Below, in pieces: positions 15,893-56,335 of a stretch of 64,000 nucleotides of DNA; position 1 is the stretch's first letter; each line of letters starts with the position of its first letter. The notes under the pieces are model-generated. The model had not been told where the DNA came from, did not search any database, and saw only the letters and a list, made by a program, of their open reading frames with translations. Origin of the DNA: Prorocentrum cordatum (Eukaryota; Sar; Dinophyceae; Prorocentrales; Prorocentraceae); NCBI GenBank assembly GCA_963575745.1, contig CAUYUJ010015686.1:1-64000 (forward strand), given 5' to 3'. Made by a program: the position numbers and the translations under genes.

Positions 15893-18800
15893 CCCAAGTA
15901 CATACATGGAAAATGCATGGTACGTTGAAATTCCAATCGGTCACCGCTAAGGGCCCACTTCAGTTCCCAAGCCAAACATGACGATTCTTCTTGCGGGCAA
16001 TACAGAAACCACCACGCGCGAGTGCGCGCGCGCTGGCGCTTTGCATGCAACACCAATCGGTGGTCACGTAAAAACAGCATGAACGTTTGGAAAGCCAGTC
16101 GGCCACCGCTAAGTGTCCACTTCAGTTTCCAAGCCAACATGGCGATTTATCGAATGTGGACAATAAAGAAATCACCACGCGCGCGAGCGCGCGCGCGCGT
16201 CGGCGCGCTGCGCGCAGCACCAATAGGCGGTAACATAAAAACCGCATGTTAAATTGGAAACCCAGTCGGTCACCGCAAAACGGCCAACTTGAATTTCCAG
16301 GCCAACATGGCCACTGACCCATTGCGGCAACGCGGAATGCTCCGCGCGCGAGAACGCGCGTGGTTCACGAAAGGACAGACCTGTACAAACTGCATGTTAA
16401 GTCGGAAATCCAACCGTTCACCGCTAAGGGCCCACTTCAGTTGCCAGGCCAACGTGGCGATGTGCGATTGCGGGCAATGGGCAACCCAGAAACCACCACG
16501 CGCGAGAGCGCGCGCGCGTCGGCGCATTGTGCACATCGCCACTCGGTTGCCATGATAAGCCGCATGTTAAGTTGGAGATCCAATGTGTCACCGCTAAGTG
16601 CCCACTTTAGTTTCCAGGCCAACACGGTGACTATACCAAAATACATGAATGCAGAAAACGCATGATACGTGGGAAACCCAACTGTCACCGCCAGGGGTTC
16701 ACTTCAGTTTCCAGGTCCAGCATGACGGCTTTTCTTGTGCGGACAATACAAAAACCACCACGCGCGAGCGCGCGCGCGCGCGCGCGTTGGCGCGCTGGCG
16801 CCTTGCACACAACACCAATCGGTGGCCACGTAAATACAGCATGATAGTTTGGACATCCAGTCGGTCACCGCTAAGGGTTTACTTTAGTTTCCAGGCCAAC
16901 ATGGCGATTGTTGGATTGTGGACTATAGAGAAAGCACCACGCGCGCGAGCGCGCGCGCGCGCGTCGGCGCGCTGCACGCAGCACCAATAGGTGGTCAAAT
17001 AAGAACCGCATGTTAAGTTGGAAATCCAGTCGGTCACCGCAAAAAAAGAAAACCAACTTGAGTTTCCATGGCAACATAGCCACTGACCCATTGCGGCAAC
17101 GCGAAAAGCTCCGCGCGCGAGAGCGCGCGTGGTTCACGAAAGGACAGACCTGTAAACACTGCATGTTAAGTCGGAAATCCAATCGTTCACCGCTAAGGTT
17201 CACTTCAGTTTCCAGGCCAACGTGGCGATGTGCGTTTGTGGGCAATGGGCAGCCCAGAAACCACCACGCGCGAGAGCGCGCGCGCGCGTCGGCGCATTGT
17301 GCACATCGCCACTAGGTTGCCATGATAAACCGCATGTTAAGTTGGAAATCCAATATGTCACCGCTAAGGGCCCACTTCAGTTTCCAGGCCAACATGGTGA
17401 ATCTATCAAAATGCATGGTAGGTGGGAAGACCAATCGGCCATCGCTAAGGGTTCACTCCAATTTTCAGGTTCAGCATAGAGATTCTTCTTGTGCGGACAA
17501 TACACAAACCACCACGCGCGAGCGCGCGCGCGCGTTGGCGCGTTGGCGCGTTGCACGCAACACCAATCGGTGGTCACGTAAAAACAGCATGATAGTTTGG
17601 AAATCCAGTAGGTCACCGCTAAGGGTGCACTTTGGTTTCCAGGCCAACATGGCGATTGTTCGATTGTGGACAATAGAGAAATCACCACGCGCGCGAGCGC
17701 GCGCGTCGGCGCGTTGTACGCAGCACCACTAGGCGGCCACGTCAAACCACATGTTCTTTTGGAACATCCAATCGGTCACCAATAAAGGTTCCACTTTAGT
17801 TTCCAGGCCAACATGACCACTGACCCATTGCGGCAACACGCAGTCCTCCACGAGCGGGAGCGCGCGCTGATCACAAAACTGCCAGACCTGCCAACACCAA
17901 CATATTAAGTTGAAAATCCGATCGGCCACCGCTAAGGGTTCTCTTCACTTACTTCAGTTTCCAGCCCAGCATGACGATGTGCTATTGTTGACCATGGGCA
18001 ATACAGAAATATCATGCGCGAGAGCGCGCGCGCGCGTCGGCGCGTTGTGCGCATCACCACTAGGTGACCACGGTAAGCCGCATTTTAAATTGGAAATCCA
18101 ACCGGTCACCGCTAAGGGTCACTTCAGTTTCCAGGCCAACATGGCGATAATTCGATTGTGGGCAATACAGAAATCACCTCGCGCGCGCGCGCGTCGGCGC
18201 GCTGCGCGCAGCACCAATTGGCGGTCACGTGCAAACCGCATGTTAAGTTAGAAATCCAATCGGCCACCGTATGGGTTCACTTCAGTTTCCAGGCCTACGT
18301 AGCGACTGTTCTATTTCGGTTCTACAAACATCGCGCGCGCGTGTCAGGGCTTTGTACGCAGTAGGGGACCACGTTGAAACCTACTATCAAATTGGAATTC
18401 CAATCGGCCACATCGAACGGTTCACCCCGATCTCCAATTGGCAGACCAACGCGGCGACCCCCATGTCGGGCAATAGAGGGGCCACCGCGCGCGGGGGCGA
18501 TCGCGCGCGCGCGCTGGCGCGGCGCACGGCGCATCAAGTGCCAATCGGCCGACACGAAGCAAACGCATGTTAAGATGGACGACCGCTCGGGCTCCGCAGG
18601 GGTTCCACATGTCAACGTGGCGGACCGCCACGCGATAGAGCGCGCGCGCGGGCGTCGATGCCGCTGCGTTGGGCTCCGCATCGATACATGGTCACGTTGA
18701 ACACAAATGTGGTCAGTTAGATCAAATCGAAGATCCTGAAGGGACCAGTTTAGTTTTCAGGTGGATACGGCGACTGTTCTACCATTGGCAATACAGAAGC

Positions 18801-24737: not shown

Positions 24738-26465
24738 TTAAAACATACAAGCCATGCCCATGGACTTGTTACCCGAAATATTTAGACACATAGGAAATAT
24801 GTTTCCCAACAGCACCTTTACATGGGGCGAAAACGTGTTGAACTCATGCCCCTTGTAAAGATCTGAACTGAGGGGCTCTGGGACCTTCCTGAAACGTTTT
24901 ACTCTTATGCAGGAGGAAGCCATACAACCTGCTGGTATGTCATCTGGCTTGCACGCCTTGCCGCATCGCATCTTCGCAAAAGCATCGCGAAGCTCTTGTT
25001 CTGTGACAGGGCCAACATCCACGTCCAGCGGCGGGAACAGCGCTCTGTCCGTCCCAGGCGTGAGCGTGACGGGACGAACATGCCATTGGATGATGCCCAG
25101 ATGTTCTGCGAATGTCTCGGCTCTTTCGTCAGTGGCCACACATGCCCCCCGAGTGTCCCGCAGACGCCCTTGTGGGCAAGGCTAGCGCTTAATGATCTGT
25201 TTGATGCAGTTCCAATGGCCGTCTGCTGTCAGAGCCTCGAGCCAAGCAGCACGATCGCGCTTTGCCGACAATTTGGCTGGTTTGCGGATGTCCTTCTCCG
25301 CCTCCCAATTGTCTGTGTGTCGAGCCTCCCGCTTCTCTTCGAGCAAGGAGGGCGATGTCTGCGAGATCCACGGTTTGTTCGGCAGCTTCGGGGCGTCGGG
25401 GACCACTGCAGCCACTGCTTGCCGCACTTGCCCTGCAGCCGAACGCCAGCGTTGCGATAAGCTTGCGTCTGCGTGGGTTCCCTCGGTTGCGGCCACGATA
25501 TGTTCCACGAGATTTTTCCTGACCTGTGAATTGCGGAGTGTCCGCCAATCCTTTTTCGCCGTCCTCTGGTTCTGTTGAGGCCCTGGCGCCCGGTCAAGAA
25601 TCGAAGCAATAACCGGAAAATGGACCGATGACAAAGTCGCGGACATATCGCTTCTGATGTCCATGAGGTCCTTTTCCATGGTACCCGGAATGGTCAGCAA
25701 CTCCAAGGCGATGAAGGTCTCTCCTGTGACCGGCGAGCTTGGCTGGACGCCTGCCTCGTGGAGGGTCGCCTTAAAAATGTCAGGACGGCCCAACACCGTA
25801 CTAGCCACCTTGAGGTCAAATGTCATGCAAAAGTCAACAAACAAGTCCCTATTTGGAAGTTCGACCTGCTTGATCGCCTCCCTTCCAAAACTGTACTCGC
25901 GCATGACATCTTCCTCCCCAGCCCGTCTGCGACCAAGCCGGGCGTTCCAATCTCCGAAGAATACGCAAGAACCGTAACCACGGATGCGTGTAGCGTGATT
26001 GTACAAGACATCATAAACATCGACCTTCTCTTCAGTCGATTTCTCGTTGTGGGGCGCATATGTAGTGCAAATGGTGATTCTGCCACTGGACGTGCGCAAC
26101 TTCAGGGAAGCGATCCTGCTGTCCAGCTGCCAGTAACCTTGCACACGAAGCCGCATCCTCTGAGAAACCACAAAGCCAACCCCAGCCCATTCTGAGATTG
26201 CATCGGAAGTGCCAGACAAAATGACTAAGAACCCACTTCCATTGTCGACGTAATGGTCTGAATTCGGCTTCCGTGTCTCCTGCCAACACATCACATCAAT
26301 TCCCGCCGCCTCCATATAACGGTAAATTTCAGCTAGCTTTAACTCTGTCAAACCCTGTACGCTCCAACTTCCCACCTTCACAAAACTGCCACGCGCATCG
26401 TCCTCGCGACACGTCGTGTCCTCACCGCTGGCAGCAGCGAGGGGTGAAACACGTGCTCTGCCCAT
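24738..26465 (-). pseudogene. LINE (non-LTR retrotransposon) ORF2 remnant: endonuclease plus a trace of reverse transcriptase
   Basis: ATG at 26465. An endonuclease/exonuclease/phosphatase-fold domain of the LINE type spans about residues 30-270: CWQET, TTYAPHNE, FFGDWNARLG and NRDLFVDFC are clear. Two catalytic positions look changed: the first motif reads GSWSVQGL where an Asn is usual, and the last reads SSVHFPV where SDH is usual. An in-frame TAG at 25182-25184 is followed in the same frame by ATDERAETFAEHLGIIQWHV and MRCGKACKPDDIPAG, which matches the start of LINE reverse transcriptases. The RT catalytic core is missing. The element is therefore dead: truncated and stop-containing. EN plus RT in one ORF suggests an APE-type clade. 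Confidence 0.8.
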
Positions 26466-26480
26466 GCACCGCCCTGCCCC

Positions 26481-27535: not shown

Positions 27536-27659
27536 CCCAACCCCTGCGCAATGCGGGGCATGAGTAGCTTTGGCGACTTCATGAGGGGGTGATGACGCGA
27601 CATGGACGAATTTAACTATGTCTGCGACCATCTCTCGGGAGGTCACATTTGAGTCCGCC

Positions 27660-29870
27660 GCGGGGCCCCGCTATGCTGGCACCCCTTGCAGGCCTTGGAA
27701 GTGGCGACAATTTGACTAATCGCAGCCCCCCAGGGATGGCGAGGTCGAATTTGGATCTGCGTAGCACGTCACTGTGCTGAACCCCCCAGCAGGGCTCGCA
27801 GCCCCCCTGATTGGCGACATCGAATTTGAATCCGCGTAGGACGTCACTGTGCTGGACTCCCCCCAGCAGCCCTCGTAACTGTCGACAATTTCACTAATCG
27901 CAGCCCCCCCGGGATGGCGAGGTCAAATTTGATTCCGCGTAGGGCGTCTCTGCGCTGGACCCTCCAGCAGCCCCCGAAAGTGGCAACACTGTCACAGATT
28001 GCAGTCCCCGAGGGATGGCGAGGTCTAGTTTGAATCTGCGTAGGACGTCACTTCGCTGGACCCCCAGCAGGTGTCGAAAGTGGCGACAGTCTCACTGATC
28101 GCAGCCACCCACGGACGGCGAGGTCTTATTTTTCATGTGCATAGAACGTCACTGTGCTGGACCCCCCCCAACAACCCTCGAAAGTGGCGACAATTTCAAA
28201 AATTGCAGCCCCCCCCAGGGATTGCGAGGTCGAATTTTAATCTGCGTATGACGTCACTGCGCTGGACCCCCCAGCAGCCCTCGAAAGTGGCGACAGCTTC
28301 ACTGATCGCAGCCCCCAAGGGATGGCGAGGTCGAATTGGAATCCGCGTAGGACGTCACTGCGCTGGACCCCCCAGCAGCCCTCGAAAGTGGCGACAGTTT
28401 CACTGATCGCAGCCCCCAAGGGATGGCGATGTCTAGTTTGAATCTGCGTAGGACATCACTGCGCTGGACCCCCAGCAGGCCTCGAAAGTGGCGGCAGTTC
28501 CACAGATCGCAGCCCCCCAGAAATGGCGAGGTCTAGTTTGAATGCGCATAGGACGTCACTGTGCTGGACCCCCCCACCAGGCCTCGAAAATTGGCGACAA
28601 TTTCACAAGTCGCAAACCCCCATGGATGGTCAAAATTGAGTCCGCGTCAAACGTCACTGCGCTGGACCCCCCAGCAGCCCTCGAAAGTGGCGACAGTCTC
28701 ACTGATCGCAGCCACCCACGGATGGCGAGGTCTAATTTGAATCAGCGTAAGACGTCACTGTGCTGGACCCCCCAGCAGGCCTCGAAAGTGGCGACAGCTT
28801 CACTGATCGCAGCCCCCAAGGGATGGCGAAGTCTAGTTTGAATCCGCGTCGGGCGTCCCTGTGCTGGACCCCAGCAGTCCTCGAATGTGGCGACAGTCTC
28901 ACTGATCGCAGCCACCCACGGATGGCGAGGTCTAATTTTAATCAGCGTAGGACGTCACTGTGCTGGACCCCCCCCAGCAGCCCTCGAAAGTGGCGGCAAT
29001 TTCAAAAATCGCAGCCCCCCCAAGGATGGCGAGGTCAAATTATAATCTGCGTATGGCGTCACTGCGCTGGACCCCCCAGCAGCCCTCGAAAGTGGCGACA
29101 GTTTCACTGATCGCAGCCCCCAAGGGATGGAGAGGTCGAATTTGAATCCGCGTAGGACGTCCGTCACGATGCTGGACCCCCAGCAGCCCTCGAAAGTGGC
29201 GACAGCTTCACTGATCGCAGCCACCCATGGATGGCGAGGTCTAGTTTGAATCCGCGTAGGACGTCACTGTGCTGGACCCCGAGCAGCCCTCGAATGTGGC
29301 GACAAGTTCACAGATCGCATCCCCCTCCCAGGGATGGCGAGGCCTAGTTTGAATCCGCGTAGAAAGTCACTGTGCTGGAGTCGCGAGGACCAATTTGAAT
29401 CCGCGTAGGACGTCAGTGCGCTGGACCCCCCAGCAACCCTGGCGGTTTTACAGATGGCGAAATCAAATTTGAATCCGCGTAGGACGTCCGTCGCTATGCT
29501 GGACCCCCCAGCAGGCCTCGAAAATGGCGACAGTTTCACTGATCGCAACCACCCACGGATGGCGAGGTCTAGTTTGAATCAGCGTAAGACGTCACTGTGC
29601 TGGACCGCCCACCAGACCTCAAAAATAACAACAGTTTCACTGATCGCAGCCCCCCCCAGGGCAGCCCCCACAGGAATGGCGAGGCCTAGTTTCAATCCGC
29701 GAAGGACGTCACTGCGCTGGACCCCCCAGCAGCCCTCGAAAGTGGCGACAGCTTCACTGATCGCAGCCCCCAAGGGACGGCGAGGTCTAATTTGAATCCG
29801 CGTCGGACGTCCCTGTGCTGGACCCCCCAGCAGCCCTCGAAAGTGGCGACGATTTCACAAATCGCAAGCC
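27660..29870. repeat. ~102 bp tandem repeat array, plus orientation
   Basis: About 20 units with a period of roughly 101-107 bp. Landmarks in each unit are GGATGGCGAGGTC, AATCCGCGTAGGACGTCACT, GCTGGACCCCCCAGCAGCC, CTCGAAAGTGGCGACAG and TTCACTGATCGCAGCC. For example, GCTGGACCCCCCAGCAGCC starts at 28261 and again at 28362. Open frames through it are artefacts. Confidence 0.92.
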
Positions 29871-29982
29871 CCCCCCCCAAGGCAAGAAAGGAGGAGGCAG
29901 GGAGGAGGCGGGAAGGAGAGAAGGAAGGACGGAGACCACAGTGCATTTTCTAAACAAATGCCCAACCAGGGAGGGTTGGGAA
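29871..29982. repeat. Left arm of inverted boundary segment
   Basis: A GGAGG-rich purine tract (29885-29935) followed by ACAGTGCATTTTCTAAAC and ATGCCCAACCAGGGAGGGTT. The reverse complement of 31137-31255 has the same order: GGAGG tract, CAGTGCTTTTCCAAAACG, then TACCCAACCAAGGATGGGTT. The two copies therefore form inverted arms. Confidence 0.75.
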
Positions 29983-32790: not shown

Positions 32791-33043
32791 ATGCAATCTT
32801 GAACGGACACCCCTCCCAGGGCGTGGGTCCCAAGAGACTCGGAACGGCGTCAGCCTAACGGAAAAAGACAGCGGGCGTGACGAGGACTTTCATTTCTTTT
32901 TACAGGCGCCGGAGCTCAGGCCCACGCCTGAGTGCACTTGCGATGGCGGCTGACGGCAGAGCTGAAACACTGAGAGCCCCTGGCCCACGAGGCCGAGGGG
33001 GCTCGAGAAATCTGACAGTCTGGCCAGACCATTAATCAAACCC
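32791..33043 (-). repeat. B2 split direct repeat (3' terminal repeat)
   Basis: 253 bp matching 33182-33434 with a constant offset of 391 and no difference seen. Its outer edge is ATGCAATCTTGAACGG, preceded by microsatellite DNA ending TATATAAAT. It forms the 3' end of the element. Confidence 0.92.
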
Positions 33044-33108
33044 GAATTCGCAGAAGTCCAAGCTACTTTGCCTCTCCTCCAGCGTTTCCCTGGGTGGGAA
33101 GGGCGGGG
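33044..33108 (-). other. 65 bp spacer between A2 and B2
   Basis: Unique sequence (starting GAATTCGCAGAAGTCC on the plus strand) separating the A2 and B2 repeats. It is not present at the A1 or B1 copies. Confidence 0.7.
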
Positions 33109-33183
33109 CGGCAGAAAGGCTTGAGGGGAAGAGGCAGCGGGAGGGGAGAAAGCGAATGCACAAGCGATGAGACCAAATGCAAT
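33109..33183 (-). repeat. A2 internal split direct repeat
   Basis: 75 bp matching A1 (40065-40139) without a visible difference. It abuts B1, overlapping by the dinucleotide AT, so B1-A2 reproduces the junction expected if the outer ends of the linear element were joined. Confidence 0.92.
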
Positions 33184-33434
33184 GCAATCTTGAACGGACA
33201 CCCCTCCCAGGGCGTGGGTCCCAAGAGACTCGGAACGGCGTCAGCCTAACGGAAAAAGACAGCGGGCGTGACGAGGACTTTCATTTCTTTTTACAGGCGC
33301 CGGAGCTCAGGCCCACGCCTGAGTGCACTTGCGATGGCGGCTGACGGCAGAGCTGAAACACTGAGAGCCCCTGGCCCACGAGGCCGAGGGGGCTCGAGAA
33401 ATCTGACAGTCTGGCCAGACCATTAATCAAACCC
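33182..33434 (-). repeat. B1 internal split direct repeat
   Basis: 253 bp copy of B2, placed 85 bp downstream of the recombinase stop codon. The following 33435-33518 is the only unique sequence between the recombinase and the repeats. Confidence 0.92.
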
Positions 33435-33518
33435 ATATCAAACGCTGGAGTAAATCCCATATCGACTCCATTGGCATGCCGAGGGAACATTGCAGCAGGC
33501 TGAGCGCAGAGAGGCACA

Positions 33519-34510
33519 TTACGAGAGGAAGGACAACTGCAAGGCCTCAGCACGCTTAGCCTCTGCCTTCACAGCGGCCGAGAGGCGTCTGAAGGATGCA
33601 AGAGCACGGCCGCTCTTTTGATAGCGCTGTACAGAACGGAAGCTCGACCACCTGCCACGAGACTGAATGTCGGCCAGCGAGCGGGCGCCTCTCAGGTAGT
33701 CCTCCGACGGACCGCCGTGCCGAGGGAGGTGGGCTGTCACCTTGGTCGGGAGGCCGACGGCGACGGCGGCCTTCTTGAGCAAGCGGTTGTACGAAGCGTA
33801 CGAGTGGAGGAACAAGAGGCGCCCTTGGCGGGCTTGGTTGGCGCTCTTGACGAGGGCCATGAGCGCGCCAGCCACACCCGCACGAGACTGGCCATCGATG
33901 AGCACGGTGTCGTCCTGGAGGCCAGTCTTGGTGACGCGCGTGTGCACGTCGTCGCCCATGACCAGCGCGGAGGCGCCGACGACGAGCCCCATCTTGTTGT
34001 ACCCTGAGCCGGCACTCGGCTGCGGCAGGATGCAGCAGGGCACGCGGAGGTCCAGCAGCTCACCAGGGCGCAAGTACGTGTCAAACTGCACCACCAGGCC
34101 GCGGGCGGCCTGCAGGGCAATCTCCGTGTTGAGGCCGGCCAGGTACAGAGCCATCAAGCACGCTGCCGCCCAGCAGAGCGGCTCCGAGGTGACGTCCGGC
34201 TCGAGCTTGCCCCAGCCGGCGAGGGCGCCCTTCGCCTTCGGGAAGACGCCTGGGGCACGAAGCGACACGCTGAAACGGTAGGCCAAGGCGGCCAAGGTGT
34301 AGCGGGCCGTGCTCTTGCTGCCGCCGTCGACGTAGAGCTGCTCGAAGTACTCCTCAAGGAGCGTGTCCACCAGGGGGTGGTCATTGCTCACCCAGCGGTC
34401 GGCGACGACGCCCATGGCCGTGGCGAACACGGCGACGCTGGCGAGGTAGCGGGCCTGAGTGGCCGGCCGCACCTGCGAACGCCGCAGGAAGCCCGGCGAG
34501 GAGTCAGCGG
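33519..34510 (-). CDS. Tyrosine recombinase domain of the retroelement
   Basis: This domain would integrate the circular DNA intermediate. In the minus-strand frame ending in TAA at 33519-33521, the domain begins near RRSQVRPATQARYLASVAVF. Catalytic signature: Arg in TYLRPGELLDL (plus-strand 34050-34080), then HLPR, an RGRW segment where Trp stands in the second His position, and the Tyr of QRYQK (about 33620). That is the R...HxxR...(H/W)...Y set of tyrosine recombinases (established). The frame is open far upstream with Arg/Ser/Pro-rich text, which is a GC artefact. It overlaps the end of the methyltransferase frame (stop 34504), so expression would need a frameshift, a splice or a separate start. 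No ATG is well placed at the domain start. The catalytic set looks complete. Confidence 0.85.
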
Positions 34511-35811
34511 GCACCTGGCGGGCCCGGGCAGCCGACGCCCGGCCTCTGCCGAGGCTTCGGCCTCGCCCGCGGCCGCGGGAGGCCGACGAAGCGGCCCCAC
34601 CCCTCGGCGTCCGGCGGCCAGAGCGCGACCCACTTCCGCGGGCAGCTGGGGCACTCGAGGGACGGCTGGACGTCGACCATCTTGGCTGCACGGCGGAGCT
34701 GAGCCTCCCAGTGACCGGGCAGCAGTGGATCCCCATCTGGTCGCCAGGCTCCAGCCGGCGCCGCGCGCGCCAAGGCCCGGGCGGCGCTGTGGCAGACTCC
34801 AGGAGGGTAGGCACCAGCCAGGGTCGTGCGCCAGAACTGCTTGAGCCGACCCTGGCGATCACGGACCTTGACCTTCCCCTGAAGATGCTCGTGGGCATGG
34901 CCTCCAAGACAACGCCTTTCAAGGACACCGAGCTCGGGGAGGTCAGACTCAATCCTGGTGGGCTTCTGGTACGGGGCTCCAAACTGACAGCAGTCATACA
35001 CCACGGAGACCTTGCTATGCTCGGACAGGAACTTCTGAAGAGGCTCCCAAGAGAAGAGCCGGGATCCCCGGGGGTTCTCGAGGGACCACCTGACGCCGAA
35101 CTGAACGCACAACCGAAGTAGACGAAGAGTGACATGAGCACACCGCCGACCGGCGCGTATAGCAGACGTATCATTGGCCCCACGGCGAGCAACTGACCAC
35201 GGAGTGCACGGAGTCCCGAAGTGCACGAACCAGACCTTGCGAGAGACGGTCCACTGGCGAACGACGGTCTCGATGCTGGGCCGAAGCAGGTCGCCCCAAC
35301 CCCCGAACTTGATGTCGATCGGAGCCGCGACCGCCAGACCGAGCTGCGCGAGAGCCCCCGCCCAGCGAGCCCCCCCCGAGAAGATCTCGAGAGCCGCCCG
35401 ACGTCCACGAAGCCGAGGTACAGGAACACGAGCCGGCTCGACCGCGACGAACGGCGTGGGCGGAGGGGGCGGCAGCCCGGGAGGCTCTGTCGTCCATTTC
35501 CGGCCAGGCCGGGCATGCAAACGAAGGCTCCCGAGGGCAGGCGGCCCGCGCGGCGCGCTCCCGGCGCGCGTGCGCGGCCCGGAGCGGCCAAGACGTGGCG
35601 AGGCCCGCTCGGAAGAGAGCAGCCGAGGCCCCGGCACGAGTCTCCGTCCAACTCGTCCGAGGGCCCCAGCAGGCCGCGGCGCAGGCACTGGCCGCGGCCG
35701 TGGGCGGCGCCCGCGTGGGCAGGCCGCCGGCGGCGACAGGTCGCGGGCCCCGTCGGCCTCGTCGAACGTCGCCTTGCGTGCAGGGTGGCCAGGGGCGCCG
35801 GCTGCGGGCCC
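34504..35811 (-). CDS. Cytosine-C5-methyltransferase-like domain of the retroelement
   Basis: Core at about 35397-34775. Motifs in order: LEIFSGGARWAGALAQLG (motif I, SAM binding), PIDIKFGGW (acidic residue of motif II), FGTPCTPWS (motif IV, with the Cys that would be the nucleophile, about 35194-35217), SLENPRG (motif VI ENP), then YDCCQFGAPYQKPTR (motif VIII-like). It ends in GGHAHEHLQG and FWRTTLAGAYPPGVC. This order matches C5 cytosine methyltransferases rather than the Dam-like N6-adenine domain of classical DIRS elements (family knowledge; assignment by eye). It is in frame with the upstream RT-RNase H, separated by a TAG at 35812-35814. The first ~100 residues are Pro/Arg-rich linker. 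The C-terminal HxH and WRT block is unusual and may be a target-recognition part. Confidence 0.75.
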   Translation of the reverse strand, partial: GPAAGAPGHPARKATFDEADGARDLSPPAACPRGRRPRPRPVPAPRPAGALGRVGRRLVPGPRLLSSERASPRLGRSGPRTRAGSAPRGPPALGSLRLHARPGRKWTTEPPGLPPPPPTPFVAVEPARVPVPRLRGRRAALEIFSGGARWAGALAQLGLAVAAPIDIKFGGWGDLLRPSIETVVRQWTVSRKVWFVHFGTPCTPWSVARRGANDTSAIRAGRRCAHVTLRLLRLCVQFGVRWSLENPRGSRLFSWEPLQKFLSEHSKVSVVYDCCQFGAPYQKPTRIESDLPELGVLERRCLGGHAHEHLQGKVKVRDRQGRLKQFWRTTLAGAYPPGVCHSAARALARAAPAGAWRPDGDPLLPGHWEAQLRRAAKMVDVQPSLECPSCPRKWVALWPPDAEGWGRFVGLPRPRARPKPRQRPGVGCPGPPGAR

Positions 35812-37600
35812 CTATTGTGGCCGTGGGGAGCGCCGCGGCCCGCAGCGGCCAGCAGCTCCAGCAGCCCGCGGCGGCGGCCGCGGCGGGCAGGTCTGAAGTC
35901 GGCCGCCGCGCAGCCGCGCCGCGGGGGGGGGCTCGCAAGCCTCCTCGGCGACTGGCCAGCTGGCGGTCGCCGAGGGCGCCGGCGGGGCCGGCGTCGGGGG
36001 CGCCGGCGGCGGGCAGCCCGCGGGCAGAGCGGGCCTGTCCGACCTGCCGCCAACCCGCCGCTGCCCTGGGCGGTAGACGCCCTGCAGCGCCTTCCTCGAC
36101 CCCGCGTCACTGAGGTTGCGGTCCGTGTCGAGGTGTCGGCGCCGCCAGGAGATCCCACAGGCGATCTGGTAGGCGGCGGCCCTCCGGCACAGACAGGCGA
36201 GGCCGAGGTCCACGGCCCGCCCCTTCTCGATGGAGAGGAGCTCCGACATGTTGTCGCCCAGGCTGAGCACGCGGGACCCGTGGCAGTCGACCTGCCGGGC
36301 GGCGTGCCGCAGGCCCCCCAGGGCGATGCGGCCCTCCAGCAGGTGAATGGGGGCCCCGCGGCGCCAGGCGCCCTCCACGATGAGAGGCCAGTCCCTGGGA
36401 TCGACGAGGCTGTCGGGCACGGAGACGCCAGCAGGTCGCACAGTGGGCCTGAGACGACCCTTGAGTACGCCTCGGGCGCCCTCCCTCGAGCGCGTCGGCG
36501 GGGGGGCCCAGACGGCCACGCCTGCAGCGCCCGGCGGCCCCCCCAGCACTCCTCCAGCGCCCGGCACCCAGCCCGGGGAGAAGGTGTCGTCGAGCGCCGC
36601 GTCGGGCCGCTTCTCGTCGGGGACGAACCTCCACCTCTCCCGGGTAGCAGCCAGCTGCCGAAGGAGTCGCACGTCAGCGCGTCGGCGGTGGAGAGCGTAG
36701 CCCGCCTCGGACGAGTCGGAGCACAAAACCAGGGAGGACATCGGCCGGTCCAAGAAGACGACGGCCTGGAAGATGAGGCCCCTGAAGAGCTGGATCTCCC
36801 GGCGGGCCCCAGCAGACAGAGCGACTGGGGGCCCCTGGCCCTGCGCGTCCACGAAGCGGTAGAGCAGGCGGAAGATCGAGAGGGCCGGCCGCAGCAGCAG
36901 GCAGTGCTGCACACAGTGCCCGAGGAACACTCGGATCTGCCAGGCCGCGCGCGGAACCCCTGGGCGCTCGAGCTCCTGACAGGCCAAGTAGAGGCGCCAG
37001 GCTCGGTGATCGGAATGACGCAGACGCCTCCGCCTCCCGTCGTACTCGACGCCGACGGTGGTGAAGTGCGTGGCCGGGCCCTCGACCTCGTGGTACGCGA
37101 TGCCGAGCGAGTCGAGCTTGTCCTTCGCGGCCTGCAGCGCCTGCCCGACGTCGTCGCTCGAAAGGCCCAGGAACGAGACGTTGTCCACGTAGACCGACCC
37201 TGTGGGGCGGAAGGGTGCCGCGACGGGAGCCGGCTGCTTGTCGAGCAGCAGGCGTCGGGCACCCCCCGGCAGCGTGTCAGAGACCCAGGACGTGACGGAC
37301 GAGTGCACGGCCCAGAGTGCCCATGACCACCCCATCGGCACCCCGCGGAAGACCGGGAAGACGAGCTCGTCGGGGTCGACAGGGGACAGGCCGTCGGGCG
37401 TCCAGATGTGGGAGACCTGGTAGTAGGAGGCCCGCTCAGGGAAGTCCATCCCGAAATCCTCCGCGACGCGCTCCGAGAAGAACTGGTAGAACGAGTCCTG
37501 GAGGTCGAGGGACGACCCGAAGATCTCCATCAGCGCTAACCCATCCAGCGTCCGAGAGCGCAGCATCGGACCAGTCCTGCTCGCTGAGGGCAGCCGGGGC
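35812..37600 (-). CDS. Reverse transcriptase palm/thumb plus RNase H of the retroelement
   Basis: Minus-strand frame. RT motif A is SLDLQDSFYQFF (about 37471-37510), motif B' is FRGVPMGWSWALWAV, and motif C is YVDN (37180-37191) where YxDD is usual. A thumb-like helical region (CQELERPGVPRAAWQIRVFL) follows. RNase H residues: CSDSSEAG (Asp), LLEGRIALGG (Glu), SLGDNMSEL (Asp) and HLDTDRNLSDAGSR (Asp). This gives a complete acidic set by eye. The C-terminal 100 residues are Pro/Ala-rich, ending at TAG 35812. The finger part of the RT is in another frame upstream, so the intact enzyme needs a +/-1 correction near 37560-37600. The YVDN change leaves the first Asp, the essential one, intact. Confidence 0.85.
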
Positions 37601-38497
37601 CCCGAGGGCGGCATGCGGCGGCGCCCAGTGGGTGCGGTTGGTGTCGCGAGCGTCGACGACCAGGCGGATCCAGCCGCCCTTCTTCTCGACGAAGAAACAC
37701 CCCACACGTGACCTGATTCGCCTCCGGAAGCCGACCAGCCCCCGCCCCGCGAGCCTGAGAAGGAAGCCCCGCCGATGGCTGGCGTCGCTGGCAAGCCGCG
37801 CGTCCCAGTACGGCTTGATCGGCGGCAGGAGCTCGAGGTCCTGCTCCACCACGCGGCCCGGCTTGCGGATGTAGGCGTCGGGGTCGCGGAAGGCGTCGAC
37901 GACGAACTTGGGGCAGACCTCCTCCACGTCTCGAGGCGTGACCGAGGACTGCCAGAACTTGAGCTTGGACTCCTCGTACGGGACGACCTTGGACGGCGCG
38001 CCTCCGTAGAGCGAGTCGGACTTGAGGAGCTCCTGAAGGGCTCCGCGAGGGTGGAGATCTGCCGGGCGAGGGCCATACTCCGCCACGCAGCGGCCGAGCT
38101 GCCGGCCACACGAGGACGAGGTCGCCGTACCCGCAGTCCCTGAATCGGCAGCGCCACCTGGCCCGCGGCCACGATGGCGCACCGTGCAGGCGGCGAGACA
38201 GTTGATCGAATGTACTGCCTCACGAACACGGTGTTCACGTGAGCGTCGCTGGAGCACCCGCTGGCGCAGGTACCGCGGCGCCCCGCTGAGGTCGACCGGC
38301 GGCGCAGGCCCCGGGACCGAAAGCGGCAGCGGGTCCCCGTGCGAGGAGCGCGATCCCGATGCCATGGGGAGGACGAGGAGGCGGCCGCGGCGGAGGAACC
38401 CGCGGCGGCAGCCAGGCAGGGCGGGGCGCCGCAGGACGCCCAGCCCAAGAAGGGGGCCGCCCGGCCCCCTGCTACTTGCCACCGTCGGCCCCGCCAC
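37570..38497 (-). CDS. Pol N-terminal region: RT fingers
   Basis: Minus-strand frame overlapping the gag-like stop by about 25 nt. N-terminal part is Gly/Pro/Arg-rich. From about residue 130 it carries APSKVVPYEESKLKFWQSSV, EEVCPKFVVDAFRDPDAYIR and VGCFFVEKKGGWIRLVVDAR, then DTNRTHWAPPH. The last block is the fingers of a DIRS-type RT (motif 1-2 region with K...R). The good text ends near LSEQDWSDAALSDAG, and the palm continues in another frame. Relative to gag the frame differs, suggesting gag-pol frameshifting, or damage. Confidence 0.75.
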
Positions 38498-39596
38498 CCT
38501 TCGGCCCCTTCGGGGGCGCCTTGGGCTGCGCGGCCGTCCTCTCCTCCTGCCACTGCCGATTCGCCTTCATGGTCTGGGCGCGGGCACGCGCCTGGTCGCC
38601 AACCCATCCGTCGAACTCCGGCAGCACCATGCCGCCCGTGTCGTCGACCCCCGTGTCGAGGATGAGGTCGAGCCCCTCGAAGTCGGGGGCCCGAGGGTTC
38701 TTGCGGGTCGCCGACTCCAGCTGCTTGAGCCGCCTGACGAGATACTCCGCGCCCGCAATGTTGAACAGGTCGAGCTGATCGAACTGCTGCATCATCCGAA
38801 GAGACACGCAGATCACGTGGTGCTCCCGGGCGACGTTGCCGCGCTCGGCCACTCCGCTGCGGCGGAGCCACGTGGTGTGGTGCTCCTCCCAGTTGCCCTG
38901 ACCACCGTCTCGAAGGGAAAGCACAGCCTCCCTCGTCGCACGGCGGCCCTGCAGAGGCCAGCCCGGTATCGTCGCCTCCTTCATGCGGCGCACCGAGTCC
39001 CGGAAGTCGATGTACCTGCCTCCATCCTGGTCCCTCTCGTCGCCCACGATGCGCGGGTCCCGGCCCGCGCCCCCGCGAGCTCGGGCGAGGTACGTGTCGA
39101 AGTTCTGGCCCTCGCTCACCTTGATCGCGTGGACCCAGACGTCGTCGAGCCGTACGAGCCCAACATCCCCACGCCGCACCAGGACCTCCTCGTTGGCGAG
39201 GACCTGCGGCGGCACCTCCTCGCCAAAGTGCGACGAGGTGGGGTCGCTCACGTACCACTTGTCCCCGGGGAGGCCCACGACGCCGGCGAGGTCGAACCCG
39301 AGGATCGTCCCCAGGGCCCTGGCCTCCTCGAGGTAGCCCTGCATGTCCTCCGCCGCCACTTCGTCGAAGGCGTAGATGTTGCCAGCATGCCGCGCCGGGA
39401 AGGGGCCCGACCGCCGAAGGGCCAGCACACGGAACGTGGCCAGGTCGACGAAGGCCACCTCCCCATCCGGCGTGAGCCAGATCCACTTCTGGGCATCTCC
39501 CTTCACCAGCAGCACACGGTGATGCCACTGGAAGTTCTCGTCGTCCTCGTACCTGACGAGGCACTGGCTGAACGGGGTGTCCAGCGCACGGGCCAT
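38472..39596 (-). CDS. Gag-like ORF of the retroelement
   Basis: 374 residues, ATG at 39596 (MARALDTPFSQCLVRYEDDE), stop TAG at 38472-38474. The protein has a globular, mixed composition: WHHRVLLVKGDAQKWIWLTP, GEVAFVDLATFRVLALRR, WEEHHTTWLRRSGVAERGNV and a helical DQLDLFNIAGAEYLVRRLKQ. It ends in a basic Gly/Lys tail (QPKAPPKGPKGGGADGGK). There is no zinc knuckle. Position first among the large ORFs and the basic tail suggest a capsid or nucleic-acid-binding role (inference). It starts 8 nt after the small upstream ORF and overlaps the pol N-terminal frame at its 3' end. Confidence 0.75.
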   Translation of the reverse strand: MARALDTPFSQCLVRYEDDENFQWHHRVLLVKGDAQKWIWLTPDGEVAFVDLATFRVLALRRSGPFPARHAGNIYAFDEVAAEDMQGYLEEARALGTILGFDLAGVVGLPGDKWYVSDPTSSHFGEEVPPQVLANEEVLVRRGDVGLVRLDDVWVHAIKVSEGQNFDTYLARARGGAGRDPRIVGDERDQDGGRYIDFRDSVRRMKEATIPGWPLQGRRATREAVLSLRDGGQGNWEEHHTTWLRRSGVAERGNVAREHHVICVSLRMMQQFDQLDLFNIAGAEYLVRRLKQLESATRKNPRAPDFEGLDLILDTGVDDTGGMVLPEFDGWVGDQARARAQTMKANRQWQEERTAAQPKAPPKGPKGGGADGGK

Positions 39597-39604
39597 GGCG
39601 GCCC

Positions 39605-40054
39605 TCAGTCAGCACGAGCACCAGGAACCCGACGGCCACGCCCGAGACCCGACGGTGTCGCCACGTGCGTGCCGCCGGCGTCGTCCTCGACGGCGAGGGC
39701 GCGCGCTCGCGCCGCCGGCCGTCCAGGCGAGCCCGCCGCCAGCCAACCCGCGGTCGCCAGCCCAGCGCCAAGGGCCACGCCCACCACGGCCGCGCCGCAG
39801 AGGTCGAGCCCCGTGTAGTGCCCAGGCGGGAGCGGGCACGGAGGGCAGGGCTGGCACGCGACCCCCTGCAGGTGCTCCGGGCCGCAGCGTGCCAGCTGCT
39901 CCCGGAGGATGGCCACCAGGCCGTCGGTCGTGTCCGAACCCTCGAACACGCAGCGGCAGGAGACCTCGGCGATCCCGCTGCGGCCAGGTCCAGTCCAGCG
40001 CTCGGAGAGCGCGCCGAGAACCCACCCGCCTGCAGCGTGCACCCAGGCGGCCAT
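39605..40054 (-). CDS. Small Cys-rich, one-transmembrane ORF at the 5' end of the retroelement
   Basis: 149 residues from ATG 40054 (MAAWVHAAGGWVLGALSERW), 11 nt inside the A1 repeat edge. It contains CRCVFEGSDTTDGLVAILRE, CQPCPPCPLPPG, then a hydrophobic stretch LCGAAVVGVALGAGLATAGW of transmembrane length, followed by an Arg/Ala-rich tail. It ends 8 nt before the gag-like ATG. No known family; the layout (Cys cluster plus one membrane segment) is odd for a retroelement of this class. It may be an accessory protein. The alternative, a chance GC-rich frame, is less likely given its tight fit between A1 and gag. Confidence 0.55.
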   Translation of the reverse strand: MAAWVHAAGGWVLGALSERWTGPGRSGIAEVSCRCVFEGSDTTDGLVAILREQLARCGPEHLQGVACQPCPPCPLPPGHYTGLDLCGAAVVGVALGAGLATAGWLAAGSPGRPAARARALAVEDDAGGTHVATPSGLGRGRRVPGARAD

Positions 40055-40064
40055 GAACTGTTCA

Positions 40065-40139
40065 CGGCAGAAAGGCTTGAGGGGAAGAGGCAGCGGGAGG
40101 GGAGAAAGCGAATGCACAAGCGATGAGACCAAATGCAAT
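40065..40139 (-). repeat. A1 split direct repeat (5' terminal repeat)
   Basis: 75 bp identical by eye to A2. Its outer edge on the plus strand reads GACCAAATGCAAT and is followed by the flank ATGGGGGGGATCC. Confidence 0.92.
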
Positions 40140-56277: not shown

Positions 56278-56335
56278 TTGAAAATGGCTCGAGCCCGAGC
56301 TTGAGCCAGAATGGCTTGAGCCAAAATGGCTACGG
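56278..56335 (-). other. Tandem chain of DinoSL relics
   Basis: On the minus strand, 56335-56315 is a perfect 21-nt leader as far as I know the consensus. It is directly followed by a shortened second relic (CCATTCTGGCTCAAG, 56314-56300) and then a third, more decayed one (CTCGAGCCATTTTCAAG, 56294-56278). Such chains arise when a retroposed, leader-bearing gene is transcribed, trans-spliced and retroposed again (established for dinoflagellates). Confidence 0.88.

Follow-up and report, generated by a model that had tools for sequence, protein, structure and literature searches.

A single tyrosine-recombinase (YR) retrotransposon occupies positions 40139-32791 of the minus strand in a stretch of 64,000 nucleotides (nt) of the dinoflagellate Prorocentrum cordatum (contig CAUYUJ010015686.1 of assembly GCA_963575745.1, positions 1 to 64,000, hereafter the window), with its parts in the sense order A1-body-B1-A2-B2. 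It is very likely a young, multi-copy PAT-like YR retrotransposon, with a methyltransferase (MT) domain between RNase H and YR, and a member of a clade, its named hosts all dinoflagellates, whose pol carries an MT of the cytosine-C5 (C5) type together with a reverse transcriptase (RT) that reads YxDN at its catalytic motif C.

One element with split direct repeats

An earlier note, made from the DNA letters alone, had described a complete element with paired repeats of 75 and 253 bp in the order A1-body-B1-A2-B2, enclosing gag-like, RT, RNase H, MT-like and YR regions. Both repeat pairs are indeed 100% identical and not due to chance, and their order recurs elsewhere in the genome. The RT, RNase H, MT and YR regions between them are each backed by homology, frame by frame: tblastn gives the order small cysteine-rich open reading frame (ORF) with a hydrophobic stretch, gag-like region, RT (in two frames), RNase H, MT and YR, and two P. 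cordatum proteins, P0003 and P0004, match the element at 97% (Table 1). Its G+C content is 0.695, compared to 0.57-0.59 in the flanks.

Further copies were searched with the 3' 710 bases of the element (B2, A2 and B1) against the 4.13 Gb P. cordatum assembly, giving at least 45 matches, and the best 40 of 93 candidates were scored. We retrieved 32 places, which with the window makes 33, leaving out matches that were partial or less than 91% identical, except C15081. A and B were each present twice in 27 of the 33 places, including two where one repeat is truncated; since the query itself holds B2, A2 and B1, only the A1 at the far end counts as an independent finding. All copy counts given here use the 26 of these 27 four-repeat places that are free of N, so that seven of the 33 places, which lack a second A or contain N, are excluded. 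The element starts with ATTGCATTTG in 23 of these 26 complete copies and ends with GATTGCAT in 21 of them, while B1 and B2 of the same copy show only 0-6 differences over ~250 sites in 25 copies, the remaining copy having a truncated B2.

A predicted C5-type methyltransferase in pol

The modelled MT domain found its best structural matches in DNMT3, M.HhaI, DNMT1 and HaeIII. When an MT profile, from which P0003 was omitted, was compared by hhalign with known enzymes, it scored 95.5% with Dcm and seven phage C5 enzymes and 4.1% with Dam and the five phage enzymes found with it, so that an adenine-type (Dam-like) MT was rejected. The features expected of a C5 enzyme come in order: the fold, motif I (FxG, with its Gly in 97 of 97 aligned relative rows), the PC of motif IV and the Glu of motif VI (Table 1). 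Predicted fold, structural matches and hhalign thus all agree with the C5-like nature that the earlier note had given to this MT.

This domain escapes the usual family models. PF00145, the Pfam model of C5 enzymes, matched none of 27 proteins at E values up to 5 (HMMER filters drop most matches above ~0.1), when the E. coli Dcm control gave 3.9e-77, and PF00145 was found in none of the best 120 of 153 protein matches among their precomputed domains. NCBIfam gave no matches in the MT of seven relatives, and the RT, MT and gag-like regions of the window had no matches in Pfam (E up to 1) or NCBIfam (E up to 10). With PHROGs, phrog_757 (phage DNA methyltransferase) was the best family for the MT of most of the seven proteins tested; no relatives in viral and prokaryote genome contigs, and no MT relatives in phage records, were confirmed. 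The C5-type lineage of this clade, which Pfam does not see, is a new point. The gene models of P0003 and P0004 fuse ORFs of the element and lose the MT stretch between PCTPW and ENP, probably by avoidance of frame breaks, which would hide the MT from annotation.

Ratios of nonsynonymous to synonymous differences (pN/pS) were calculated from pooled pairs of 25 copies (L033 omitted) with 95% codon bootstrap intervals, which are rough since pairs are not independent. The MT gave 0.32 (0.20-0.51) and the linker that precedes it 0.57 (0.34-0.97); the MT is under purifying selection.

Relatives and trees

Protein searches, each scoring a capped set of candidates, gave at least 153 related proteins (one search listing the best 120 of its 153 matches), with an RT detected in 151 and an MT in 103 of 153. 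The named hosts are all dinoflagellates, most matches being without a name: an MT was detected in named proteins of P. cordatum, Symbiodinium natans, Durusdinium trenchii and Polarella glacialis, and not in single proteins of Cladocopium goreaui (P0118), S. microadriaticum (P0151) and S. necroappetens (P0136).

A tree of RT and RNase H from 43 representatives (quick method, unrooted) showed one deep split of 16 versus 27 rows, the second side including two long rows. For these 43 representatives, the MT tree recovered this split with one change, a value that none of 500 shuffles reached, and few other branches were supported. RT and YR trees of the 18 proteins that have both also shared their deepest split (7 versus 11). 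Since this deepest split is common to the MT, RT and YR trees, the three domains have travelled together since that split, in agreement with the earlier note's reading of one retroelement.

The two sides differ in domain order. On the first side, the six proteins with all domains have RNase H, MT and then YR; on the second side, a YR was detected between RNase H and MT in seven proteins (two with weak YR matches), and other proteins of that side have ~380-550 residues between RNase H and MT with no YR match in frame. Two second-side proteins, P0090 and P0043, share 99% identity across 137 residues starting where RNase H ends, after which P0090 enters the YR while P0043 stays open to the MT. 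The second-side YR may therefore lie in a frame overlapping pol.

Comparison with known elements and alternative readings of the MT

The earlier note had supposed that split direct repeats combined with a C5-type MT may be undescribed. This does not stand: SymbioDIRS-Dnmt3 of Symbiodinium, described by de Mendoza et al. 2018 (PMC5890265), already has both. SymbioDIRS-Dnmt3 is organized as A-coding-B-A-B with a DNMT in pol together with RT and a YR apart, and it comes in two structures with different domain orders; its authors report that retrotransposon DNMTs carry out de novo CG methylation, and they put forward self-methylation of the complementary DNA (cDNA). Among the papers listed in searches of open-access literature, only this one and an opinion paper citing it (PMC6338049) bear directly on MT-carrying YR elements of dinoflagellates. 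Our element shares with SymbioDIRS-Dnmt3 the repeat order, a cytosine-type MT in pol with RT, a separate YR ORF, a dinoflagellate host and a poor Pfam match of the RT, the ORF layout being that of the family (16 of 26 copies) and not of the window copy itself. It differs in its MT, which in SymbioDIRS-Dnmt3 has PF00145 and groups in Dnmt3, whereas the MT found here has the motifs PCxxWS and ENP, and none of the 27 proteins returned PF00145. Moreover, the passages on SymbioDIRS-Dnmt3 mention neither a YxDN motif nor a target signature, both of which are present here.

The earlier note had also pointed to PAT and Ngaro elements, and of these two PAT is the closer, with both split direct repeats and an MT. 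PAT elements (PMC4157794) share the split direct repeats A1-B1-A2-B2, RT/RNase H, an MT, a co-oriented YR and internal repeats that lie shortly before the 3' end; they differ in that the DIRS-class MT is described as a Dam-like adenine type (PMC5890265) whereas the one found here is of the C5 type, and in the YxDN motif of the RT found here. The gag-like ORF1, of 378 residues, has no CCHC zinc knuckle and two Cys in all, and since a Gag zinc finger is missing, the Toc3-like form is a closer match to the element than Pat1. The Ngaro element of Cafeteria burkhardae (PMC8547959) shares the A1-[ORFs]-B1A2B2 organization, a gag-like ORF1, RT/RNase H and YR, but Ngaro elements are without an MT domain (PMC4157794). 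DIRS1-like elements (PMC3266345) share gag, a pol with RT, RNase H and MT, a YR and the ATT start, which is the commonest terminus there, but they have inverted terminal repeats and YL/IDD instead of direct split repeats and YVDN; the inverted repeat pairs that we detected lie in a flanking simple repeat, not at the element ends. The element thus works like PAT or SymbioDIRS, with membership in PAT failing on the adenine-type MT and membership in SymbioDIRS-Dnmt3 on PF00145.

Several observations weigh against the reading of a PAT-like element with a C5-type MT. The PAT-like placement comes from repeat structure and domain content, not from an RT/YR reference tree. The MT model reaches only low TM-scores against solved C5 enzymes (by model length, 0.29-0.42 among the best 50 matches listed), so that the likeness is one of fold and motifs only; the single MT sequence had no match among PDB sequences, sequence-profile matches to C5 enzymes of the PDB were each insignificant (best E 0.12), and one of the seven proteins searched against PHROGs reached only E 0.37. 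Among the named domains, constraint is lowest on the MT (0.32 versus 0.07-0.23), which was undetected in 50 of the 153 related proteins, a count in which truncation, other frames and real absence are not distinguished. The element shows no CpG depletion (observed/expected 0.985), and RT to MT is open in a single frame in only 16 of 26 copies.

An alternative that we hold possible but rather unlikely is that the element is a Prorocentrum member of SymbioDIRS-Dnmt3, moving by the same mechanism, whose MT would be a Dnmt3 that drifted beyond Pfam's sight. The same repeat order, the cytosine-type MT in pol, the separate YR ORF and the two domain orders found in both descriptions would fit this, and solved DNMT3 chains do head the structural matches (12.1), but M.HhaI (11.8) is within a tie of them. 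Drift would also have to explain why SymbioDIRS-Dnmt3 is recognised by PF00145 and groups with Dnmt3, whereas neither the 27 proteins searched directly nor the precomputed domains of the 120 listed matches returned this model, and the best profile family of most proteins is the phage family phrog_757.

It is less probable still that the domain is a C5 fold without activity, serving as a structural or nucleic-acid-binding part of pol. The region between the motifs is short where C5 enzymes hold their target-recognition domain, constraint is the weakest among the named domains and the PHROG matches are modest in score, all of which an inactive domain would explain. Its motif IV Cys and motif VI Glu are nevertheless kept in every copy and in nearly all relative rows (Table 1), as is the motif I Gly, and a strict three-motif pattern is satisfied by 71 of the 103 MT-bearing proteins, the others including truncated and gene-model-cut domains.

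Returning to the reading of a PAT-like element with a C5-type MT, we tentatively propose, with a little less than even confidence, that this clade of dinoflagellate YR retrotransposons has had a C5 MT lineage of its own since before its two branches split, one not taken from a host Dnmt3 and perhaps of phage-like origin, which purifying selection has maintained as a permanent component of retrotransposition, next to a YxDN RT with Asn for the second catalytic aspartate. In DIRS1-like elements, the function of the MT is described as unknown in the passages of PMC3266345. A second C5 lineage in such a pol that Pfam does not see would, if true, mean that this transposition cycle permanently requires methylation, as opposed to having captured it by chance, and MT carriers of this kind would have escaped PF00145-based surveys.

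A reverse transcriptase with YxDN

At RT motif C, 24 of the 26 genomic copies read YVDN, one YVDS and one YVDD. The fourth residue was Asn in 145 of 150 related proteins, Asp in two, and Ser, Ile and Gly in one each (four of 154 RT rows are gapped at motif C and were excluded); since the related proteins were found by queries that carry YxDN, this count describes the present clade, not DIRS elements at large. By comparison, 25 of 28 annotated DIRS1-like elements have YL/IDD (PMC3266345), and retroviral RT is inactivated when either Asp is lost (PMC554778). YVDN has been reported at RT motif C of the Cer7-Cer12 Pao elements of Caenorhabditis elegans (as cited in PMC554778), which are long terminal repeat elements of another group; it is reported for a few elements there, whereas it is near-universal among the relatives found here. 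That young copies carry Asn argues that the YxDN RT works, and we infer that this RT would be active with Asn at motif C. Both parts of the RT are constrained, with a pN/pS of 0.23 (0.15-0.36) for the N-terminal part and of 0.18 (0.13-0.24) for the C-terminal part with RNase H. The near-universal YxDN among the relatives found in this clade is a new point, and such a conserved motif makes RT function without the second catalytic aspartate directly testable.

Coding state of the window copy

The earlier note had called the element complete, which is right for its ends, these being intact, and wrong for its coding part. An 11-nt deletion breaks the RT frame in the window copy only (24 of the other copies are 11 nt longer and one lacks the region), and an in-frame TAG, equally private, stands between RNase H and MT. 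With an RT frame break and a stop before the MT, the window copy probably cannot transpose with proteins of its own; it is a young, coding-defective member of its family. Since RT to MT form a single frame in other copies, pol corresponds to one ORF (RT-RNase H-MT) with YR in another frame; the MT domain is open in 21 of 26 copies.

Read-through at the TAG and recoding at the RT break, as functional signals, are highly improbable: a TAG with G as the next base, as found here, is a known read-through context, but both breaks are private to the window copy among the 26, and relatives such as P0011 and P0012 have an uninterrupted ORF from RNase H to MT. This explanation was rejected, being contradicted by the copies.

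Insertions and target site

Flanks were distinct between copies, save for L032 and L033, two contigs with identical 12-nt flanks on both sides, which therefore hold one insertion in two places, either by segmental duplication or as separate haplotypes. With the same order and ends and with differing flanks, the repeats belong to one element and not to two nested insertions, and the single insertion with split direct repeats that the earlier note had read is confirmed by other full copies that share its ends. An A-B-A-B order mimicked by two nested or adjacent insertions was practically dismissed and rejected, as nothing was found in its favour and as the same order and body recur in the 27 places, collinear from gag to YR with the single gene models P0003 and P0004. 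The element family has multiplied recently.

Of 23 distinct insertions (L031, L033 and L054 omitted from all target-site counts), 21 have T at +6 of the 3' flank and 17 have AT at +5/+6, while 59 of the 69 places at +1 to +3 are A or T, each with a binomial chance below 1e-11 relative to the base make-up of the flanks; these positions were chosen post hoc from the flanks, a choice that counts against the signature and does not account for values of that size. Direct repeats abutting both ends were only 0-2 nt long in 22 of 23 insertions, the exception sitting in an AT microsatellite, so that the insertions have no target-site duplication. Including the element's own terminal AT gives a site of the form AT-N4-AT, to which the internal B1-A2 junction, AT-TGCA-TT, is nearly equal in form. 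This target pattern is the expected trace of a tyrosine recombinase that would join a circle to its target without duplication, and the AT-N4-AT signature is a new point.

We propose the following as the likely cycle. The transcript would be copied by RT/RNase H, and the B1-A2 junction would assist in circularizing the cDNA. As part of pol, the MT might methylate cytosines of the new cDNA, possibly at this stage, and the YR would then insert the circle at a target of the AT-N4-AT type, leaving no target-site duplication.

Other coding regions and neighbouring sequences

The YR matched Pfam PF00589 at E 0.018, under the cut-off of this model, and its residues R, HxxR, GRW and Y were present in 26 of 26 copies; its frame is open in 25 of 26 copies, with a pN/pS of 0.11 (0.08-0.15). 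The gag-like ORF is open in 21 of 26 and gave the lowest ratio, 0.067 (0.05-0.09). Its predicted model has low confidence (pLDDT 56.5), and the label gag-like, which the earlier note had also used, reflects position and conservation only.

The small cysteine-rich ORF ahead of gag has matches in P0003, P0004, P0006 and P0016 and shares 90% identity with the beginning of P0003. Its length is kept and it is stop-free in 25 of 26 copies, with a pN/pS of 0.20 (0.11-0.32); its role is perhaps related to membranes or particles.

Table 1. Features of the element in sense order, with window coordinates.
Feature	Position	Strand	Remarks
Repeat A1, element 5' end	40065..40139	-	75 nt, 100% identical to A2
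Small ORF	39605..40054	-	149 aa, 7 Cys, one hydrophobic stretch (LCGAAVVGVALGAGLATAG)
Gag-like ORF1	38472..39608	-	378 aa; homology 39602-38511; 98% identical to P0003
RT, N-terminal part	37526..38170	-	frame -3; tblastn 96.6% to P0003 (from 38059), 93.5% to P0004 (from 38170)
RT, C-terminal part, and RNase H	35938..37527	-	frame -1; 96.6% to P0003
RT motif C	37180..37191	-	YVDN in place of YxDD, by translation
In-frame TAG between RNase H and MT	35812..35814	-	private, 1 of 26 complete copies
C5-type DNA MT domain as modelled (predicted)	34582..35469	-	AlphaFold pLDDT 88; ORF 34507-35811; homology 35481-34567
Presumed catalytic Cys, motif IV (GTPCTPWS)	35206..35208	-	assigned by motif order; Cys in 26/26 copies and 92/100 aligned relative rows
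ENP, counterpart of C5 motif VI ENV	35071..35079	-	26/26 copies; Glu in 94/95 relative rows; paired by hhalign with ENV of Dcm
YR ORF, homology part	33519..34517	-	homology 34517-33522; 97.9% to P0003
Repeat B1	33182..33434	-	253 nt, 100% identical to B2
Repeat A2	33109..33183	-	75 nt, 100% identical to A1; 2-nt overlap with B1 (dinucleotide AT)
Spacer between A2 and B2	33044..33108	.	65 nt; 63-66 nt in 25/26 copies, 36 nt in the one with truncated B2
Repeat B2, element 3' end	32791..33043	-	253 nt, 100% identical to B1

Elsewhere in the window, Rfam and tRNA scans gave no matches. An exact 21-nt dinoflagellate spliced-leader sequence lies at 56315-56335 (-), with relics at 1-2 mismatches near ~47317 and ~48996 (-); these are possible marks of retroposed transcripts. 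An ORF of 432 residues at 25185-26480 (-) has a weak endonuclease/exonuclease/phosphatase match (PF03372, E 0.0021, under its cut-off) and is perhaps a remnant of the long interspersed nuclear element type. Finally, positions 27639-29876 and 15893-18411 hold long diverged repeat arrays with self-matches of ~65-82%.

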